Source: an uncultured Poribacteria bacterium
Lineage (GTDB): Bacteria; Poribacteria; WGA-4E; WGA-3G
DNA length: 64,000 bases
Direction: 5' to 3'
Assembly (NCBI GenBank): GCA_951828385.1
Contig: OX639973.1
Location: forward strand, 4,827,200 to 4,891,199
Shown here piece by piece: positions 5,056-56,892 of the stretch; the first letter of the stretch is position 1; each line of letters starts with the position of its first letter. The translations under genes and the position numbers were made by a program. Below the pieces are notes generated by a model, which was given only the letters and a program-made list of their open reading frames with translations, searched no databases and had not been told where the DNA came from.

Positions 5056-5090
5056 AGGCCCGGTAGGTTTGGTTTCCTAACCGAACCGGA
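5056..5090. repeat. Family A palindromic repeat
   Basis: The unit reads 'ccggtaggtttggtttcc' followed by 'taaccgaaccgg'; the arms 'ccggt..ggtt' and 'aacc..accgg' are inverted. Near-identical units occur at 5151-5185 and 11468-11502. Confidence 0.85.
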
Positions 5091-5150: not shown

Positions 5151-5185
5151 AGGCCCGGTAGGTTTGGTTTCCTAACCGAACCGGA
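5151..5185. repeat. Family A palindromic repeat
   Basis: Same 35-base unit as at 5056-5090, identical across the core from 'aggcccggtaggtttgg' through 'ttcctaaccgaaccgga'. Confidence 0.85.
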
Positions 5186-7104: not shown

Positions 7105-8175
7105 ATGAATCAACACGAACAAGAACGAATTGTGAATGCAACAGCGTTGCAAAGTGTCTGTAGTGCGCTTTACCAGAAAGTCGGCGTTGCGCAATCAGAT
7201 GCGGATACCGTCTCGGAAATGCAAGTACTGATGGATTTGCGTGGCGTTCATTCACACGCGACACGCGGCATGCCGGGTTATGTCCGGGGCATCATCGGTG
7301 GGAACATTAATCCGAATCCACAACTCCAGACGCTTGCGGATAATCCTGCCTCTGTGCTATTGGATGGCGACCGCGGATTGGGACATCTCGTCGGTGTTCG
7401 GGCAATGAACATCGCTATTGAAAAAGCGAAGTCCGCCTCTATCGGTGTGGCGATTGTTCGGAACAGCAATCACTTCGGGGCTGCCTCCAGCCATGCGATG
7501 CGCGCACTTCCGCACGATATGATCGGTTTCGCAACGACCAACGGACTCGGTGTGAATACTGCCGTTTTTGGTGCGAGAACTGCTTCGATCGGAAATAATG
7601 CGTTTTCCTTTGCGATCCCTGCTGGCGAAGAGCCACCGATTGTGTTGGACATGGCGTGCGGTGCTGCCGCCGCTGGACGGATTGGGACTGCAAGGTTATA
7701 CCAAGAGAAAATCCCGTTGGGATGGGCACTTGACGCGGACGGTAACGAAACCGATGATCCAGGGAAAGTCGCCGTTATCCTACCCGCTGCAGGTCCGAAA
7801 GGTTCCGCGCTCGCGATTGTGATGGATGTCTTGTGCGGTCCGTTGAGCGGTGGGTTGATGGGCATCAACAAACACTTTCAACCCGGGGACGCGCCACCAG
7901 AGAAGCGCGTATCGGCACACTTTTTCCTCGCGATTAACATTGCCAGTTTCACCGCTGTTGCAGAATTCAAAGCCGAAATTGACCGACAGATTCGGATGAC
8001 ACGTCAAGCGACCCCACGCGCCGGTTTTACGCGCGTCACCCTACCCGGTGAGATTGAGTCGGAATTGACGCAAGAACGCATCGCAAACGGGATTCCGCTG
8101 CACAACGAACCGTTGCAAACGATCGAGCAACTCGCCGACGAGTTAGAGGTTGAAATCCCATGGAGCCGACAGTGA
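7105..8175 (+). CDS. Malate/L-lactate dehydrogenase family oxidoreductase (Ldh_2)
   Basis: This 356-residue protein matches the NAD(P)-dependent Ldh_2 family (malate/L-lactate/ureidoglycolate/sulfolactate dehydrogenases) over its whole usual length. Typical segments are 'DLRGVHSHATRGMPGYV' near residue 45, 'SNHFGAASSHAMRAL' (catalytic His region) near 120, and the glycine-rich 'GPKGSALAIVMDVLCGPLSGG' region near 235. It should reduce or oxidise a 2-keto/2-hydroxy acid in the cytoplasm; the exact substrate cannot be read from sequence. GGGGG lies 9 nt before the ATG. It stands alone, with its own promoter and a separate promoter for the next gene. Confidence 0.85.
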   Translation: MNQHEQERIVNATALQSVCSALYQKVGVAQSDADTVSEMQVLMDLRGVHSHATRGMPGYVRGIIGGNINPNPQLQTLADNPASVLLDGDRGLGHLVGVRAMNIAIEKAKSASIGVAIVRNSNHFGAASSHAMRALPHDMIGFATTNGLGVNTAVFGARTASIGNNAFSFAIPAGEEPPIVLDMACGAAAAGRIGTARLYQEKIPLGWALDADGNETDDPGKVAVILPAAGPKGSALAIVMDVLCGPLSGGLMGINKHFQPGDAPPEKRVSAHFFLAINIASFTAVAEFKAEIDRQIRMTRQATPRAGFTRVTLPGEIESELTQERIANGIPLHNEPLQTIEQLADELEVEIPWSRQ

Positions 8176-8184
8176 ATTTTCTGC

Positions 8185-8214
8185 TTGCAATCGCGCCTTA
8201 TATCCGTGTATAAT
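8185..8214 (+). promoter_or_regulatory. Promoter of the restriction-modification gene
   Basis: TTGCAA (8185-8190) and TATAAT (8209-8214) are spaced by 18 bp, 46 bp before the start at 8261. The hexamers and spacing are identical to the promoter of the BrnT-like gene at 11846-11875. Confidence 0.65.
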
Positions 8215-8260
8215 TGGCGTTGTCTCAAATCCGATTGCCAATGCTACACGGGGAAACGCC

Positions 8261-11200
8261 ATGCCGACACTTAATATCAAACCGACACATAAACCCATCA
8301 AAAACTATTATGCAGAACTTGAAGCATACACGAAAATCGGCGCGGAACACGAAGGCGCAGTCCGAACCGCATTCCAAACGCTCCTCCAACACTATTGCCG
8401 ACAAGGGGGCCTCATCCTTGTCTGTGAAAAGACACGCTACACAAAAGCGAACAGGCGCATCCAGTTAGATGGCGAAATCGTTGATGCTTTCGACTTACCC
8501 CATGGACACTGGGAAGCAAAAGATACACAGGACGATCTGCCGACCGAAGCGCGGCGAAAATCGGAAGCAGGGTATCCGTTTAAAAATATCATCATTCAAT
8601 CCCCAACACGCGCACTCCTCTATCAGAACGAGCACCTCCGCCTTGACCGCGACCTGACGGATCCAAAGAATCTTATCGAGCTACTGAACACCTTCTTCGC
8701 GTATCAAGAGGAAAACATCGTCGATTGGTATGCTGCAGTGGAGGAATTTCGGGAGAAGGTGCCGGTGCTGGGCCGCGGTGTCGCACAGCGCGTTGAGACC
8801 GAGATGCAGGACAACCCGTTGTTTCAGCAAGCCTTTACGAATTTTCATCAGCAGTGCCGAGCCGCTATTGACCCAAACCTCACCGAGGCACAAGTTGAAG
8901 AGATGCTCATCCAACACCTCCTCACCGAACGGATTTTCCGCACCGTTTTTGACAATCCCGATTTTACCAACAGAAACATCATCGCCCAAGAAATTGAGAA
9001 GGTGATCCGTGTCCTTACGCAGCGTTCCCCAAGCCGCTCCGAGTTCCTGCGTCCCCTAAATCCGTTCTACATTGCGATTGAGAAAACCGCCGCGACTATC
9101 ACCGATTTCTCACAAAAACAGTCGTTTTTGAACACCGTCTACGAGCAGTTTTTTCAAGGTTTTTCGGTGAAGGTTGCCGACACGCACGGCATCGTTTACA
9201 CGCCACAACCCATCGTGGATTTCATGGTGAAAAGCGTTAAACACGTGCTTAAAGCCGAGTTCGGACGGTCGCTTTCGGATATGGGGGTTCACATCATCGA
9301 TCCGTTTGTTGGCACCGGTAACTTCATTGTCCGCCTCATGCAAGAGATTCAGGGGCGGCGACTGCCACAAAAATACCGAGAGGAACTACACTGCAACGAG
9401 GTGATGCTCCTTCCGTATTACATCGCCAGTCTCAACATTGAACACGCCTATTTTGAGCGAACCGGCAGCTATGAACCCTTCCCGCATATCTGCTTCGTGG
9501 ATACGTTTGATACAGTGGATTTAATGGACGCGCCGCATCAAACAGGACAGTTTTCCTTTTTTACACCGGAGAATACGCTTCGGGTTGAGGAACAGAGAGA
9601 GATGCCAATGTTCGTCGTTATCGGCAATCCCCCGTACAATGCAAGACAGACTAACGAAAACGATAACAACAAGAATCGACCGCATGCAGGCGTTGATGAG
9701 CGGGTGCGGAACACGTTTGCCGCTGATTCTAATGCACAGTCGAAAAATAAACTCTATGACCCGTACGTCAAGGCGTTCCGGTGGGCAATGGACAAGCTTG
9801 GCGATGAGGGGATCGTCGCCTTCGTGACGAACAACAGTTTTATTGACGCGCAAATGTTTGATGGCATGCGAAATCACCTCTCCGAGGAGTTTGACACGCT
9901 CTATATTCTGGATTTAGGTGGCAACGTCCGCAAGGGACAGCCAGGAGATGCGAATGTGTTCGGCATTCAGGTTGGCGTGAGCATCAATATCTTCGTCAAA
10001 AGTAGTAGGCACAGTCCCTGTGCTGTAACTGCTGAAGGTGTTTCGCGTATGCTTTACAATGACGAAACTGCCGAACTAAATAAAGCACGTACCTTCGCGT
10101 TCCTTGACGAAAATCAGCATATTGGTAATATAGAATGGCAGGAGCTAACTCCTGATAAACGGCATACATGGCTCACAGCGGATCTCCACACCGATTTTGA
10201 CACTTTCATTCCGATGGGGAGTAAGGAAGCAAAGGCAGGTCAGGGTAAAACTGAAGGAACGCTTTTTAAAACCTACAGTCTTGGTGTGTCAACGAACCGA
10301 GATGCTTGGGTTTACAACTTCAATACAGCCTCTCTCACTGAAAACATTCAGCGGATGATAAAATTCTACAATGCTCAGACGCTTGAGTGGGTAGGTACAA
10401 AAAACAACACGGGAGTGAATCTCGATGATTTCGTGGATTCGGATCCGCAGAAAATTAGTTGGAGTGAAGGCTTAAAACGTAAACTGAAAGCCAGACAACT
10501 CGCAGAATTTGCTGAATCAAAACTACGTCAATCTCTCTACCGACCATTCACAAAAACAAACCTATTTTTTGATAGGCTCATGAATGAGCGCGTTTATGTA
10601 TTTCCCTCCATTTTTCCTACGCTTGAAACGGAGAGCGAAAATCGGATTCTCTGTGTCAACATGACTCCGGAGAGACCCTTTGCTTGCTTGATGAGTGATT
10701 GCATTCCTGTAAATGTTATGGCTGGTGGCTTTGGATCGCCGACACAGTGCTTTCCGTTCTACACCTATGATGAGGATGGCACCAACCGCCGTGAAAACAT
10801 CACCGATTGGGCGTTGACGCAGTTTCAAAAACACTACGCAGATGACACTATCACCAAATGGGACATCTTCCATTATACCTACGGATTACTGCACCATCCC
10901 GATTATCGCGAGCGGTATCAAGAAAACCTCAAACGAGACTTACCGCATATCCCCTTTGCGGGAGATTTTTGGGCGTTTGCAAAGGCAGGCGCGCGGTTGG
11001 CAAACCTCCACATCACCTACGAATCCCAACCCGAATACAATAAACTTGAGCCGATTGAGACACCGGGCATGCAAGTCAATCTGCGTGTGGAACGAATGAA
11101 ATTCTCCAAAGACAAAACGCAATTGAAATACAATGATTTTCTGATGTTAGAGGGCATCCCGCCTGAAGTATTTGCATATCGGTTAGGGAACCGGTCTGCG

Positions 11201-11374
11201 CTGGAGTGGGTTGTGGATCAGTATCGTGTAAAGGTAGACAAACGGAGCGGCATCAAGAACGATCCGAATCGACTTGAGAATCCAGAGTATATCCTTCGTT
11301 TAATTGGACAGGTCATCACAGTCAGTTTAGAGACGGTGGATATTGGTAAAGGCTTGCCCGCTTTAAAATCGTAG
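8261..11374 (+). CDS. Type IIG/ISP-like restriction-modification enzyme
   Basis: The 1037-residue protein joins three parts. Residues about 60-110 contain a PD-(D/E)XK nuclease core (D75/D78, then E85-A-K87 in 'HWEAKD'). Residues about 305-600 form an N6-adenine methyltransferase with motif I 'DPFVGTGNF' (about 347) and NPPY (456-459). The C-terminus, with 'SLYRPFTKTNLFFDRLMNER', matches the Type ISP C-terminal/target-recognition region. No helicase domain lies between nuclease and methyltransferase, so the layout is closer to Type IIG than to true Type ISP. It should cut foreign DNA and methylate host DNA at one site. I chose ATG 8261 over a frame 37 codons longer because the promoter lies between them. 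Residues about 582-591 are encoded by a palindromic repeat (see repeat at 10004). Confidence 0.85.
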   Translation: MPTLNIKPTHKPIKNYYAELEAYTKIGAEHEGAVRTAFQTLLQHYCRQGGLILVCEKTRYTKANRRIQLDGEIVDAFDLPHGHWEAKDTQDDLPTEARRKSEAGYPFKNIIIQSPTRALLYQNEHLRLDRDLTDPKNLIELLNTFFAYQEENIVDWYAAVEEFREKVPVLGRGVAQRVETEMQDNPLFQQAFTNFHQQCRAAIDPNLTEAQVEEMLIQHLLTERIFRTVFDNPDFTNRNIIAQEIEKVIRVLTQRSPSRSEFLRPLNPFYIAIEKTAATITDFSQKQSFLNTVYEQFFQGFSVKVADTHGIVYTPQPIVDFMVKSVKHVLKAEFGRSLSDMGVHIIDPFVGTGNFIVRLMQEIQGRRLPQKYREELHCNEVMLLPYYIASLNIEHAYFERTGSYEPFPHICFVDTFDTVDLMDAPHQTGQFSFFTPENTLRVEEQREMPMFVVIGNPPYNARQTNENDNNKNRPHAGVDERVRNTFAADSNAQSKNKLYDPYVKAFRWAMDKLGDEGIVAFVTNNSFIDAQMFDGMRNHLSEEFDTLYILDLGGNVRKGQPGDANVFGIQVGVSINIFVKSSRHSPCAVTAEGVSRMLYNDETAELNKARTFAFLDENQHIGNIEWQELTPDKRHTWLTADLHTDFDTFIPMGSKEAKAGQGKTEGTLFKTYSLGVSTNRDAWVYNFNTASLTENIQRMIKFYNAQTLEWVGTKNNTGVNLDDFVDSDPQKISWSEGLKRKLKARQLAEFAESKLRQSLYRPFTKTNLFFDRLMNERVYVFPSIFPTLETESENRILCVNMTPERPFACLMSDCIPVNVMAGGFGSPTQCFPFYTYDEDGTNRRENITDWALTQFQKHYADDTITKWDIFHYTYGLLHHPDYRERYQENLKRDLPHIPFAGDFWAFAKAGARLANLHITYESQPEYNKLEPIETPGMQVNLRVERMKFSKDKTQLKYNDFLMLEGIPPEVFAYRLGNRSALEWVVDQYRVKVDKRSGIKNDPNRLENPEYILRLIGQVITVSLETVDIGKGLPALKS
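10004..10032. repeat. Family E-like palindrome inside the restriction gene
   Basis: 'gtaggcacagtccctgtgc' holds the perfect stem GCACAG/CTGTGC (10009-10023). The start 'gtaggcacag' matches, on the opposite strand, the unit between hisG and hisS (39118-39179). It is translated in frame as 'SRHSPCAVTAEG' within the methyltransferase. Confidence 0.6.
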
Positions 11375-11467: not shown

Positions 11468-11502
11468 AGGCCCGGTAGGTTCGGTTTCCTAACCGAACCG
11501 GA
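11468..11502. repeat. Family A palindromic repeat
   Basis: 35-base unit with 'cccggtaggttcggtttcc' followed by 'taaccgaaccgga', one base different from the copies at 5056 and 5151. Confidence 0.85.
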
Positions 11503-23890: not shown

Positions 23891-25813
23891 TTAGTGGGTG
23901 TGTCCCGCATGCGCATCAACAACTTCGGAGGGAGCTGCCATCACTCTCATCAGTTGATGCGTCCCCTGAACAACTACCAGCTCACCCGGCAGCACACCAT
24001 CTCTAATCTCTATGTACCGGTCATCCTTGGTACCGACCACAATTTCGTGCTTTGTATAAGTAGCACCGTACGCAACAAAAACAAACCGGCTACCGCCATC
24101 TTCAATCACCGCATCTAACGGAACGCTCAAGACATCGACACCTTTTTCGAGGACAATCGTCTGTTCAGCAAACATCCCAGGTTTCAGCTGATGATCAGGA
24201 TTTTCGATTTCTGCCCAAAAGTGAACGGTCTGCTCCTCTGGCTCCACAATATCCGAAATGCCAGAAATCTTGCCGGTGTGAATTGTTTCTGGGTACGCAG
24301 CGACGTGAATACGCACCTCACTGCCTATCTGCCATTTGTCCTGAATTAACGCAAGTGTGTCTTCGTGAACTTCTCCTTGAACCCAGACAATATCGGTGTC
24401 CAGTATTGAGAAAAGGACATCGCTCTTTTCAACTGTCGTGCCGACTGTCACATGCTGCTCGGTAATTTGCCCAGAAGCGGGTGCCTTGACATAGAACATA
24501 GCGGACGGTTGACCTGTTTGAATAATCTTGTCGATGTCTTCAAGTGTGAGTCCGGACACCTGAAGTTTCTGGCGAACTTTGTCCAAGGTGATGTTCGCAT
24601 TGCGCAATGTTTCTTCCAGTTGAAGAACCCCCTCCAATGCTTCCGAACTTTCTACAAAGGCGAGGTAATTCTCAATCAAGGCATCGGTGGACAAATCGTC
24701 AAAGGACGTGATTGAACCCGTTTCAGCCAAAGCTTCGAGGAGTGTTTCGGTTAATCCAGCAGCCAAGGCGCGTTGTCTGTTTGCTGCAACCTTGATAGCC
24801 GCAAGTTCGTACGCCACTTCTGCATCAACCAACCTTGTTGATCCCTCACTAAGCACCGCATATTTTTCCAGTAGGGGCGAGGTTACCTCGTCCCTTAGAG
24901 GCGAGGTAACCTCGCCCCTGTCCAGGCTCTCTGTATCTAATAGCGAGAGGATGGGTGTCTCCCCATTATCACGCAGGATCTTTTCCAATGTCTGTTCGCT
25001 GATGCCGAGGATCTGGAATTGTCGCTTCGCATCTGCTAACTCATTTTTCGCTTTCTTATATTCTGCCTGTTTCGCAATAAGCTCTTTCTGTGCTGAGATA
25101 CGCTTTTCTGTGAGGGTCTTAATCCTTTTGAGGATGCTATCAAGCAATTGGTGTTCAACATCAGCCTTGACCAATCTAAACCGCATCTGTTCTAATGCTG
25201 AGGTAATCTGCGTTACGGCGAGGGCTTTGCGTTTTTCAACCGTCTTATGCAGCTGCTGTAGTTCGGATAGCGATTGCAAGTAGTCAATTTGCCGTGTTTG
25301 TAATTCCCGGCGAATTTGTTTGGCGAAAACCTCTGTCAGTCTCGCCAACTTGGATACAAGTGATTTCTGTTGAGATGCTGCTTCAATAAGTTCGATCTGT
25401 GCCATTTGTAAATCAAGGCTCTCCAGTTCAAGCAGCACATCGCCTTTTTTCGGCGTTTCGCCAACGCTGAAATGGATACGCTTCACGATACCGCCGGTTC
25501 TCGGTGTGACAATGGCTTGCCGTTCTGGGTGTGCCATTACGTTTCCGTGAACAGACACAACCGTTTCAATCGCACGAATATCGGCTTCATCAGTCTTCAG
25601 ACCGATATTAACTTTCGCTTTATCGGTGAGTGTCACCGTATTCTCTTGGCTGTGTGCGTGTCCAGCTTGCTCACTATGGGTATGGGCTTGCTCATCGTGA
25701 ACATGTGTATCTTGGGCCCAAGTCAATGTAAGCGTGAGATTTAGCGCAATCAAGCTTCCCATTATGATAACGAGGATTCCCAAAAGTGGTGTGATATGAG
25801 AATAACGTAACAT
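23891..25813 (-). CDS. His-rich periplasmic adaptor of the efflux system (CusB/CzcB-like)
   Basis: The 640-residue membrane-fusion protein has an N-terminal anchor (residues 10-33), a His-rich segment (residues about 36-56, 'HVHDEQAHTHSEQAGHAH') and a second His tail at the C-terminus ('HAGHTH'), both likely metal-binding. In between lie a lipoyl/barrel-sandwich half ('GGIVKRIHFSVGETPKKGD'), a long alpha-hairpin coiled coil (about 140-470, longer than usual), the second lipoyl half ('APASGQITEQHVTVGTTV') and a beta-barrel. It should link the pump to the outer-membrane channel. Residues about 298-315 ('RGEVTSPLRDEVTSPL') come from two palindromic repeat units inserted in frame. GGAGAAATC precedes the ATG. 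Confidence 0.88.
   Translation of the reverse strand: MLRYSHITPLLGILVIIMGSLIALNLTLTLTWAQDTHVHDEQAHTHSEQAGHAHSQENTVTLTDKAKVNIGLKTDEADIRAIETVVSVHGNVMAHPERQAIVTPRTGGIVKRIHFSVGETPKKGDVLLELESLDLQMAQIELIEAASQQKSLVSKLARLTEVFAKQIRRELQTRQIDYLQSLSELQQLHKTVEKRKALAVTQITSALEQMRFRLVKADVEHQLLDSILKRIKTLTEKRISAQKELIAKQAEYKKAKNELADAKRQFQILGISEQTLEKILRDNGETPILSLLDTESLDRGEVTSPLRDEVTSPLLEKYAVLSEGSTRLVDAEVAYELAAIKVAANRQRALAAGLTETLLEALAETGSITSFDDLSTDALIENYLAFVESSEALEGVLQLEETLRNANITLDKVRQKLQVSGLTLEDIDKIIQTGQPSAMFYVKAPASGQITEQHVTVGTTVEKSDVLFSILDTDIVWVQGEVHEDTLALIQDKWQIGSEVRIHVAAYPETIHTGKISGISDIVEPEEQTVHFWAEIENPDHQLKPGMFAEQTIVLEKGVDVLSVPLDAVIEDGGSRFVFVAYGATYTKHEIVVGTKDDRYIEIRDGVLPGELVVVQGTHQLMRVMAAPSEVVDAHAGHTH
24871..24920. 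repeat. Family D palindromes (two units) inside the adaptor gene
   Basis: 'ggggcgaggttacctcg' and 'gcgaggtaacctcgcccc' are adjacent palindromic units. The same sequence lies between ubiE and pheT (54413-54441). Here it is read in frame. Confidence 0.8.
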
Positions 25814-33318: not shown

Positions 33319-33385
33319 CACGGTAGGTGCGGTTTCCTAACCGGGGTCCCCACCCGTTACTGGGAAGGGGCACCGGGCATAACCA
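33319..33385. repeat. Family A repeat interrupted by family C
   Basis: 'cggtaggtgcggtttcctaa' 'ccg' is followed by 'gggtccccacccgttactgg' 'gaaggg' and then 'gcaccggg'. Removing the middle block restores an ordinary family-A unit. The middle block also occurs in pheT (55667-55699) and near rpmI (59063-59112). Confidence 0.75.
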
Positions 33386-41524: not shown

Positions 41525-41561
41525 CAGGTCCGGTAGGTGCGGTTTCCTAACCGCACCGGGT
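41525..41561. repeat. Family A palindromic repeat
   Basis: 'ggtccggtaggtgcggtttc' followed by 'ctaaccgcaccggg': the 'gcacc' variant with inverted arms GGTGCGGTT and AACCGCACC. Confidence 0.85.
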
Positions 41562-53683: not shown

Positions 53684-54406
53684 TCAAGCACTGTTCCTCG
53701 GTTTCTTCCCAACGTGAATAGCAACGATACCGAATGTTTTCCGATGAAACTGCACATCTGTCAGTCCGCACTGCTCCATTTCCGCTTTCAGCGCATCGCA
53801 ATTCGGGAATTTCATAACAGACCGCGGGAGATACCCGTACGCGTCATCTTTGCTGCGGGAGATTAAGTTCCCGACAAAAGGCAAGATCTTCGTGAAATAA
53901 AAATAATAGAGACCCCGAAACAGCGGGTTTGTCGGTTGTGTAAACTCCAAGATAGCGACCCGCCCGCCCGGTGCAACAACGCGCGTCATCTCGCGTATCC
54001 CCATCTCTAAATCGGAAACATTCCGAATACCAAAACCGACAGACACAACATCAAAGGTATTGTCTAAAAACGGGAGAATGAGGGTATCCGCTGCCAGAAA
54101 GTTTGTAGTGCGGTTAGAAACCGCACCTACCGGTTGTTGAAGTTTCTGATCCCCGATAACGAGCATCTCAAAGCAGAAATCTGAGCCGATAACGAAACCC
54201 TCTGCACCAATTTTATCCGAGTATGCAAGCGCAAGTTCACCGGTACCCGTACAGACATCCAGCACCTTATTCGTCGGTTCAACGTCGCTTGCTTTGACTG
54301 TTTCCCGTCGCCATATCTTGTCACGCTTGAGACTTAGCAGCGCGTTAAGAAAGTCGTAATAACGAGCAATGGCAGAAAATAGGTTTTTGATCCGCTGTGC
54401 CTGCAT
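53684..54406 (-). CDS. ubiE: Demethylmenaquinone/2-methoxy-benzoquinol methyltransferase
   Basis: The SAM-dependent C-methyltransferase acts late in menaquinone or ubiquinone synthesis. The 240 residues show the family signatures 'FSAIARYYDFLNALLS', SAM motif I 'VLDVCTGTGELAL', 'DNTFDVVSVGFGIRNVSD' (UbiE signature) and 'PGGRVAILEFTQP', with 'YGYLPRSVMKFP' near the end. Residues about 90-102 ('PVGAVSNRTTN') are encoded by a family-A palindromic repeat inserted in frame between two conserved segments. Downstream of pheT on the same strand, separated by a family-D repeat. Without other quinone genes nearby, menaquinone versus ubiquinone cannot be decided. Confidence 0.9.
   Translation of the reverse strand: MQAQRIKNLFSAIARYYDFLNALLSLKRDKIWRRETVKASDVEPTNKVLDVCTGTGELALAYSDKIGAEGFVIGSDFCFEMLVIGDQKLQQPVGAVSNRTTNFLAADTLILPFLDNTFDVVSVGFGIRNVSDLEMGIREMTRVVAPGGRVAILEFTQPTNPLFRGLYYFYFTKILPFVGNLISRSKDDAYGYLPRSVMKFPNCDALKAEMEQCGLTDVQFHRKTFGIVAIHVGKKPRNSA
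54106..54133. repeat. Family A palindrome inside ubiE
   Basis: On the minus strand 'ccggtaggtgcggtttctaa' then 'ccgcacta': the family-A core with one base missing from 'ttcctaa', read in frame. Confidence 0.85.
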
Positions 54407-54412
54407 AGTTCA

Positions 54413-54441
54413 CCGTAGAGGGCGAGGTGACCTCGCCCCTA
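54413..54441. repeat. Family D palindrome between pheT and ubiE
   Basis: 'gagggcgaggtgacctcgcc' 'cctac'. The minus-strand TAG at 54441-54439 that ends pheT is the 'cta' of the repeat's end. Confidence 0.8.
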
Positions 54442-56892
54442 CATCCGTAATTCCGCACCAAGTTCCTGATTGAGATGCTTGACAACTTTATCGTGAAGGG
54501 CATTTACTGCCTTGTCTGTCAAAGTTTCGGTTGCAGAATGATACGTGATCGCGTAGGCGAGACTCTTTTTGCCTTCCGGTACCTGTTCGCCTTCATAGAC
54601 ATCAAAGAGACGGACCGATTCAACCAATTCGCCACCCGTTGTGTAGATAAGTGCTGTCGGCATATCCGACAATATCTCTTTATCCACGACAATCGCAAGG
54701 TCACGCTCAACCTTCGGATAGACAGGGATAGGTTCAAAACGTTTGGCAAATATGGCAGCATCTACTAACGCTTCCATGTCAAAATCAAAGAGATACGCTT
54801 TGTAAGGCAGATCGTAATTTTCGAGCACCTCTGGATGTGCTTCTCCGAAGATGCCTATCTGTTTGTGACTCGACAGCACCGCTGCGTTGCGACCGGGGTG
54901 GAAGGTCGGCGCATCCGTTTTCTCCAATGTGTAATCAACAATACCGCAAACCTCAAGTATCCCCTCCACAAGCCCTTTGATATCGTAGAAATCTGGTTCT
55001 CGGTGCGGGTTGCTATACACGCCATCCCCGACCTGTCCAGCGAGGATGCCCGTAACCCGTTCCGGCTCTTTCTCCGTTCCATTGCGGATGAAGACGCTGC
55101 CTATTTCAAAAAGCGCGATGGTGTCTATCTGATGGTTCCGGTTATGCTGCGCGTTTTCGAGTAAACTCGGTAGTAGTGTTGTGCGGAGCACCGACATTTC
55201 TGGACTCAACGGATTTTGCAACTTCAAGACATCGCGGAGTGGATGGTCCACAGCGAAGCGGATCTTGTCAAAACAGTTCGGATCACAAAAACTATAATTG
55301 ATTGCTTCCATCATTCCGGCGGCGCGGAGAAAATGCTTTATATGTTTCCGAACCTCTGTGCTCAGATTCGGGGCAGGGACAGGAATATCACCCTTGGGCA
55401 ACGTTGTCGGAATATTATCGTAGCCATAAACGCGCGCAATCTCTTCAACAAGGTCGATTTCACGGGTGACGTCAGATCTGAACGTTGGTACAGTGACTTG
55501 TAGGCGCGAGGTCTCCTCGTCCGCTTGATAATTTCCAGTGCCATTGGCTTTGACATCAAAACCGAGGTTGCTTAAAATCTGCACCATCTCTGAGGTATCA
55601 ATTGTAGTCCCCAATATGAAATTAACACGTTCTGGGCGGAGTTGAATCTCGGTCAAGGGTTGCTGTGCCCCCTTCCCAGTAACGGGTGGGGACCCCGGGT
55701 AGACATCGACGACACCTTTACAGATGCTACCGCCTGCAAATTCGGCGATGAGTTGTGCAGCACGGTCAAGCGCAGTAAGGACTGCACCTGGATCGCCACC
55801 ACGCTCAAATCTGTAAGAGGCTTCCGTGCTAATGCCTAATGCTTTAGCAGTCGCGCGGATACTTGACGGATTGAAATAAGCACTCTCCAGCAACACATCA
55901 GCGGTGGTCTCTGTGATCTCAGAATCATATCCGCCCATAACCCCTGCGAGCGCGACAGGCTTTTCAGCATCCGCAATAACGAGCATATCAGATGTGAGTT
56001 CACGGTCTATCTCATCAAGCGTTGTCAGATTTTCACCCGCCGCCGCACGCCGCACAACAATACGGTTCTCGGCGAGTTTGTGGTAATCGAAAGCGTGAAG
56101 CGGCTGCCCATATTCCATCAATACAAAGTTCGTAATATCGACAATGTTATTAATAACGCCGATCCCAACAGATTCAAGGCGCTGCTGTAACCATGCTGGA
56201 GATTGTCCTACTTTAACGCCTCGGATAACACGTGCAGCATAACGCGGACAGAGGTCAGGTGCTTCAATTGTCACAGAGGTTATCTCTTGAGTATCGGTTT
56301 CATCTTCGTTGAAATCAACTTGTGGCAGTTTTAAAGCATTGCCTGTCTCCGCACGGATTTCACGGGCAACGCCGATCAGGCTCAGGCAATCTGGACGGTT
56401 GGGTGTTATCTCAAGTTCAAACACGACATCGTCTAATCCGAGTGCTGCTGAAATTGATGTACCAAGGGATAGGTCTGTCGGTAATTCCATTAAACCCGCG
56501 GTATCTTCAGAGAGTCCTAACTCCTTTTCGGAGCAGAGCATTCCGTGTGAAGTTTCGCCGCGCAGTTTCGCGCGTTTAATTGTCAGCCCGATGGGCAGCG
56601 TTGCACCGATTGTGGCAACGGGCGCGAGCATACCTTCTCGGACATTCGGCGCGCCGCAGACAATCTGGAGTTCTTCCGTCTCACCGATATCTACCTGACA
56701 CAGAACAAGTTTGTCGGCATTTGGATGCGGCTTGATGGATCCAACGCTGCCCACGACCACGCCTTCGAGTTCAGCACCCAGCTGCTTAACAGATTCAACT
56801 TCAACGCCTAACATCGTTAGCCGATCAGCGAGTTCGCTTGGAGATAATTCAAAATCGATATAGTTTTTAAGCCAATTGAGGGTTACGTTCAT
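54439..56892 (-). CDS. pheT: Phenylalanine-tRNA ligase beta subunit
   Basis: The 817-residue subunit starts 'MNVTLNWLKNYIDFELSPSEL' and shows the tRNA-binding (EMAP-like) domain ('VGSIKPHPNADKLVLCQVDIG'), B3/B4 editing region, B5, the catalytic-like core ('GMMEAINYSFCDPNCFDKI', 'LQNPLSPEMSVLRTTLLPSL') and the C-terminal ferredoxin-fold anticodon domain ('YPKVERDLAIVVDKE'). It works with PheS as an alpha2-beta2 enzyme. Residues about 398-409 ('GSPPVTGKGAQQ') replace a short loop and are encoded by a family-C repeat in frame. The stop codon lies within a family-D repeat. It follows pheS by 90 bp. Confidence 0.95.
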   Translation of the reverse strand: MNVTLNWLKNYIDFELSPSELADRLTMLGVEVESVKQLGAELEGVVVGSVGSIKPHPNADKLVLCQVDIGETEELQIVCGAPNVREGMLAPVATIGATLPIGLTIKRAKLRGETSHGMLCSEKELGLSEDTAGLMELPTDLSLGTSISAALGLDDVVFELEITPNRPDCLSLIGVAREIRAETGNALKLPQVDFNEDETDTQEITSVTIEAPDLCPRYAARVIRGVKVGQSPAWLQQRLESVGIGVINNIVDITNFVLMEYGQPLHAFDYHKLAENRIVVRRAAAGENLTTLDEIDRELTSDMLVIADAEKPVALAGVMGGYDSEITETTADVLLESAYFNPSSIRATAKALGISTEASYRFERGGDPGAVLTALDRAAQLIAEFAGGSICKGVVDVYPGSPPVTGKGAQQPLTEIQLRPERVNFILGTTIDTSEMVQILSNLGFDVKANGTGNYQADEETSRLQVTVPTFRSDVTREIDLVEEIARVYGYDNIPTTLPKGDIPVPAPNLSTEVRKHIKHFLRAAGMMEAINYSFCDPNCFDKIRFAVDHPLRDVLKLQNPLSPEMSVLRTTLLPSLLENAQHNRNHQIDTIALFEIGSVFIRNGTEKEPERVTGILAGQVGDGVYSNPHREPDFYDIKGLVEGILEVCGIVDYTLEKTDAPTFHPGRNAAVLSSHKQIGIFGEAHPEVLENYDLPYKAYLFDFDMEALVDAAIFAKRFEPIPVYPKVERDLAIVVDKEILSDMPTALIYTTGGELVESVRLFDVYEGEQVPEGKKSLAYAITYHSATETLTDKAVNALHDKVVKHLNQELGAELRM
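55667..55699. repeat. Family C repeat inside pheT
   Basis: 'ttcccagtaacgggtgggga' plus flanking C/G runs; reverse complement of the block at 33343-33375 ('tccccacccgttactgggaa'). Read in frame in pheT. Confidence 0.85.

Follow-up and report, generated by a model that had tools for sequence, protein, structure and literature searches.

The ubiE gene and its palindromic repeat

The window, i.e. the whole stretch of 64,000 nucleotides that was analysed, stems from Candidatus Poribacteria, and near-identical UbiE proteins are encoded in Candidatus Poribacteria metagenome assemblies. On the minus strand at 53684-54406, it carries a ubiE/menG-like methyltransferase gene of 240 codons, which was assigned to the UbiE/MenG family using Pfam (Ubie_methyltran, E-value 5e-66) and NCBIfam profiles (TIGR01934, above cut-off). 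Within this frame, a GTAG-tagged REP (repetitive extragenic palindrome) of a repeat family designated A (CCGGTAGGTGCGGTTTCTAACCGCAC) was found at 54108-54133 on the same strand, encoding PVGAVSNRT. The GTAG tag precedes a perfect 8-bp hairpin, GTGCGGTT-TCT-AACCGCAC, and this arrangement of a tag at the end of a short stem with a short loop, here of 3 nt, is that of GTAG-tagged REPs (stems of 5-13 bp). The RNA fold of the repeat has an energy of -13.8 kcal/mol (z -3.5). A sequence-only reading had reported the core of an intergenic palindrome inside ubiE, coding for PVGAVSNRTTN. This repeat proved to be real: the 20-mer GGTAGGTGCGGTTTCTAACC (54112-54131, minus strand) has a chance expectation of 0.00, the full match extends over 24 bases including both hairpin arms, and the peptide corresponds to residues 93-103 of UbiE.

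In the predicted structure, UbiE residues 90-100 form a loop between a helix (79-89) and a strand (101-105), which would place the insert in a loop. This block is the least confident of the model, with a pLDDT of 58 vs. a mean of 85 overall. The canonical family A sequence is free of stop codons in three of six frames. With the canonical TCCT loop, the ubiE frame would contain a stop codon, which is not the case with the TCT variant. A stop filter explains which copies are readable, since only TCT and similar loop variants leave this frame open. As had been claimed, the reading frame is kept, ubiE being open in the Poribacteria genes compared, whichever insert is present.

Including the GTAG tag, the family A core has a size of 26-30 bp. 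Its 15-base core GGTAGGTGCGGTTTC has 42 exact copies in the 6.66-Mb genome and none in the reversed control. With one mismatch at most, 130 copies were counted genome-wide vs. 3 for the reversed pattern, and the exact ubiE variant with the TCT loop has four copies in the whole genome. The sequence-only reading had listed the same core at five intergenic sites. The family is indeed shared and the GTAG tag is kept in these copies, but their cores are variants instead of identical sequences. The copies starting at 33323 and 41533 have the first 14 bases in common with the ubiE core, followed by the loop TTTCCTAACC; these REPs extend over 33322-33341 and, as a full palindrome with hairpin, over 41532-41556 (both plus strand). 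Those at 5063-5084, which is paired with the copy at 5158, and at 11475-11496 (GTAGGTTCGGTTTCCTAACCGAACC; both plus strand) are variants differing by one to two bases, as is the copy at 5158. High copy number and a mostly intergenic position, both typical of GTAG-tagged REPs, were thus found; of the 183 frequent-repeat segments counted in a 464-kb sample of the genome, 164 lie between genes. All 36 genus genomes of a first set contain the core. It also occurs in another two families of the same order, and it was not found in genomes more distant than these three families.

Several apparent intragenic copies were discarded. A 15-base match in mqnA (L011) has no second arm and was set aside as a chance match; the encoded VGAVS is a conserved MqnA motif. 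The apparent copies of L009 and L012 are in frame but precede what is probably the true start, and two ORFs (4860300-4860618 and 5026538-5027240) are spurious, running across repeats; none of these were counted. The latter region (G000:C1:5026538-5027240) is a long head-to-tail array of short repeats.

Palindromes in other genes and RAYT genes

The gene pheT (54439-56892, minus strand) adjoins ubiE in the loci read. It was examined solely as the neighbour of ubiE when chosen, and serves as species marker below. In the window it contains two in-frame palindromic repeats: a family I repeat (GGGGTCCCCACCCGTTACTGGGAAGGGG) at 55669-55696 (minus strand), which encodes PGSPPVTGKG and is absent from 49 of 51 homologues, and a diverged family E REP at 55500-55522 (minus strand), which encodes ADEETSRLQ. 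Among the species, five pheT loops bear in-frame inserts in some, mostly recognisable palindromic repeats of other families. Between pheT and ubiE, a further family E REP (GTAGAGGGCGAGGTGACCTCGCCCCTAC) matching the family consensus was found at 54415-54442, the CTA of which provides the TAG stop codon of pheT.

Two further genes of the window with Pfam support contain consensus matches in frame. A family C REP at 10001-10029 (plus strand) encodes SSRHSPCAVT within a Type ISP restriction-modification gene (8150-11374, plus strand), and in a HlyD/CusB-like gene (23891-25813, minus strand), two tandem family E REPs at 24871-24919 (minus strand) encode RGEVTSPLRDEVTSPLL. A UxaA/GarD-like gene, found via a family A copy, has three loops in which families A, C, D, E and F are interchangeable; in the third variable loop of L189, L191 and L182, a family D palindrome (GGGGTT-ACA-AACCCC) is nested in frame in the loop of a family C repeat. 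In a SelA-like gene, family A is present in 5 of 30 genomes, the remaining 25 having clean insert-free sites.

The consensus sequences of 14 families gave 65 hits in the 464 kb of genome sampled vs. 2 in the reversed sequence. Six genes with Pfam support contain eight of these hits in frame, the counts of intragenic copies resting on this 464-kb sample. With a corrected pattern, family C was found in 33 of 60 genomes. In a syntenic block of 75 kb shared with G017 (36 orthologue pairs), six in-frame indels of 6-60 residues were noted, about four of which were read by eye as such repeats; simple hairpin scores alone cannot tell repeat indels from random coding segments.

RAYT genes (REP-associated tyrosine transposase, an IS200-like HUH enzyme) were searched using the model NF047646 with a cut-off of 80 bits. 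Matches were obtained in all 38 genus genomes, 28 above the cut-off. Among the RAYT loci read, seven, from seven genus genomes, have family A or its GTAGGTTCGG variant on their flanks, family A occurring in both orientations in L212, L213, L215, L216 and L219; L217 and L218 are also flanked. A RAYT gene bordered by its REPs, as known for GTAG-tagged REPs, is therefore present in relatives. The two family A RAYTs scanned reached 125-127 bits. The RAYT of L215 matches E. coli TnpA-REP (4er8), and its locus contains the exact ubiE loop variant GTAGGTGCGGTTTCTAACCGCACC twice. Families D, F-like or GTAGTAGTGCGAT border further RAYTs. No RAYT with family A flanks was seen in the window's own genome, whose RAYTs have other families: two genes, L100 (G000:C1:476661) and L099/L204 (G000:C1:1235138), are accompanied by GTAG REP arrays (GTAGTAGTGCGAT/GTAGTAGGGCAAT and GTAGGAGCGAG, respectively). 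No target-site signature of transposition was identified. Judged from sequence, a RAYT is the likely mover of the family A REPs.

The ubiE loop in related species

The ubiE site was compared across 38 genus genomes, mostly metagenome assemblies, with one genome per species. The family A REP (type A) occupies the loop in 15 of them. An unrelated hairpin of ~90 bp rich in GGAAGG/CCTTCC (type B), which adds ~30 residues, was found in eight (L119, L121, L123, L128, L129, L143, L157 and L158). Type C, another GTAG REP (GTAGTAGGCACG-CTCCGT-CGTGCCGTAA), is present in G004 and, outside the genus, in L133; three genus genomes have likely remnants of it (type c). The remaining 11 have no repeat and a short variable stretch, and the outgroup genera have the short form of the loop. 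The type B insert has no GTAG tag; its motif CCAACCTTCCAACCTTCCA is dispersed in the carrier genomes. The ubiE gene of L133 (OY282383.1) is a mosaic, which resembles the sister genus to the left of the insert (VGKQK) and the window's genus in the type C insert itself and to its right.

The residues PVGAVSNRTTN were missing from every homologue compared that lacks the DNA repeat. The type A loop is longer than that of insert-free relatives by 9 nt only; therefore, some older loop sequence was replaced. Of the insertion proposed by the sequence-only reading, the in-frame foreign repeat stands, while the event resembles a replacement more than a pure insertion; in essence, the sequences support its interpretation. 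The exchangeable cassette, whose kind differs between sister species, lies approximately between the IGD and FLA codons (54096-54146, minus strand). At this site, sister species joined with 100% support differ in type: L111 (A) and L129 (B), L117 (A) and L143 (B), L107 (A) and L118 (C), L106 (A) and L160 (c). By this comparison, that loop takes up several interchangeable inserts, of which the ubiE REP is one. As sister species have a different palindrome or none in the same loop, such peptides appear to come and go in working proteins.

The distribution of the inserts was compared with a tree of pheT (51 taxa) as independent species marker. This single-gene tree and that of ubiE without the insert agree on the clades of mixed insert types. 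Type A vs. not-A requires 11 changes on the pheT tree (mean of shuffled labels 11.2) and type B vs. not-B 7 changes (shuffled 7.4), so the type of insert is discordant with the species tree; clustering was seen for the insert-free type only. The ubiE flanks track the species tree up to a few codons from the insert. For instance, L111 (A) and L129 (B) differ in 10 of 180 flanking bases and have entirely different cassettes, and L120 shares an identical 51-bp cassette with the window at 22 differences in 180 flanking bases. For type A, the mean distance is 0.083 in the cassette vs. 0.164 in the flanks with a correlation of r = 0.15, and the cassette is closer than the flanks in 87 of 91 pairs. 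The corresponding values for type B are 0.237, 0.172 and r = 0.65, and the insert-free loop also diverges more than its flanks. According to these distances and correlations, type B looks old and mostly vertical, type A recently spread or unusually constrained. Among 13 type A genomes, the synonymous divergence of the repeat (0.071) is the lowest of 230 ubiE windows (mean 0.366). One base pair of the stem has undergone a compensatory change in L111, and its sister L110 shows the G-U pair in between; this fits constraint and equally palindrome-templated mutation.

Two ubiE paralogues with differential loss were rejected as a cause of the mixed distribution, as one strong ubiE match was found per compared genome and the flanks agree with the tree of the species. 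It was likewise rejected that genomic REPs homogenise the ubiE copy, all type A copies keeping the shorter 3-nt loop and their own right flank.

Origin of the inserts and comparison with known elements

We consider it likely that a GTAG-tagged REP landed in the ubiE loop and that the type A cassette later spread across species by short-tract recombination. A non-autonomous REP would have inserted into ubiE, its cognate RAYT processing it as a folded single strand. The insert would have survived because of the flexible surface loop, the stop-free frame and the absence of any shift of the gene, the peptide itself probably being neutral. At ubiE, the cassette of ~50 bp may then have spread among species by recombination over short tracts, replacing type B and insert-free alleles. 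Against this explanation count that neither a RAYT with family A flanks in the window's own genome nor a target-site signature was found, and that the genomes are mostly metagenome assemblies with one per species; in addition, selection on the hairpin could also keep the A copies alike. Such selection might act at the RNA or DNA level, on mRNA structure or protein binding, type A then being old, inherited vertically and lost elsewhere. The minimum of synonymous divergence, the stable fold and the compensatory change would agree with this. However, most genus members are without type A, A clades include species of type B and insert-free ones, type A is no more clustered on the tree than shuffled labels, and near-identity across clades is equally expected from recent spread; we regard a selected hairpin as unlikely.

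Alternatively, the loop may be a landing pad into which RAYTs or other processes bring several REP families repeatedly and independently, also into older REPs, the differences between sisters reflecting fresh insertion and decay. The nesting of family D in family C and tandem copies (L173, L179, L193) in the UxaA-like gene argue for such events, as does the SelA-like gene, where family A occupies one site in two distant clades but the stem variants differ. In ubiE, however, type A copies of distant clades share ~10-15 bp of non-repeat sequence per side (AAACTTCAACAR, TACAAAC) together with loop length and frame, which is unexpected from independent events, and a unique motif is common to the B copies of several clades. 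We regard repeated insertion as somewhat unlikely for ubiE. Ordinary loop variation with a chance repeat match was discarded as extremely improbable: although the loop has the length of that in yeast Coq5 with a gap-free alignment, and a chance 15-base family match does occur in mqnA, no 24-base match with both arms is expected, and the same phenomenon was found in three other genes, the comparative data already refuting this explanation.

The sequence-only reading had likened the insert to Rickettsia palindromic elements (RPEs). The likeness is apt, in-frame palindromes having been found at conserved loci (ubiE, pheT, the UxaA-like and the SelA-like gene), but the nearest known kind is instead the RAYT-moved GTAG-tagged REP. 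To our knowledge, no transposase is known for RPEs. That the inserts are of the RPE kind and unrelated to RAYTs is very improbable; the in-frame behaviour and the occurrence of different families at the same locus match RPE-4, -6 and -7 (PMC3767692), whereas the GTAG tag, the short stem and the RAYT-flanking copies fit REPs. Both groups of palindromes leave the frame intact, are found in orthologues at the same loci and target pheT, and different RPE groups may share one locus (PMC3767692). However, RPEs are described as ~100-150 bp long (PMC3767692), a size which the GTAG-tagged, RAYT-flanking family A does not reach. The Rickettsia study left open whether such loci are insertion hotspots or contain one diverged insert (PMC3767692). 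As the Poribacteria insert families are clearly unrelated and several of them, including family A, have their own transposase gene neighbourhoods, this question becomes testable.

GTAG-tagged REPs including intragenic ones were described in 2013 (Di Nocera et al. 2013, PMC3733652), so intragenic REPs are, like RPEs, of a known kind. In common are the position of GTAG next to a short palindrome, the large number of copies, the presence of several families in one genome, cognate REPs flanking RAYT genes, some in-frame intragenic copies and TAG stops provided by GTAG; in two Xanthomonas species, different REPs even lie at about the same recB site (PMC3733652). The Poribacteria families differ in being new in sequence, the phylum not being mentioned in that paper, and in that sister species show swaps of them at fixed loops of several housekeeping genes, the phylogenetic discordance having been measured. 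No paper on Poribacteria palindromes was found in the literature searched, which is weak evidence of absence. As far as this literature shows, the families, their breadth and the swapping of unrelated palindromes between sister species, measured against a tree, appear to be new. Extragenic palindromes become protein sequence again and again at the same loops in a group with ~38 comparable genomes, which amounts to a natural series of peptides that core enzymes tolerate in their loops.

A further reading, which we consider quite unlikely, is that REP hairpins are homing-like mini-cassettes which sit at fixed loops of housekeeping genes and favour their own spread between species at the expense of alternative alleles, for instance through hairpin-induced breaks that are repaired over short tracts, or because a RAYT acts on a REP already in place. 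If true, peptide inserts from unrelated palindromes would circulate as trans-species alleles in core proteins. The TnpA-REP enzymes of E. coli, Stenotrophomonas and Marinomonas process folded single-stranded REPs, GTAG being involved in the choice of the cleavage site (PMC8266576). As in these REPtrons, a gene for a predicted HUH tyrosine transposase is bordered by its own REPs in Poribacteria; in contrast, the intragenic Poribacteria copies lie outside any REPtron.
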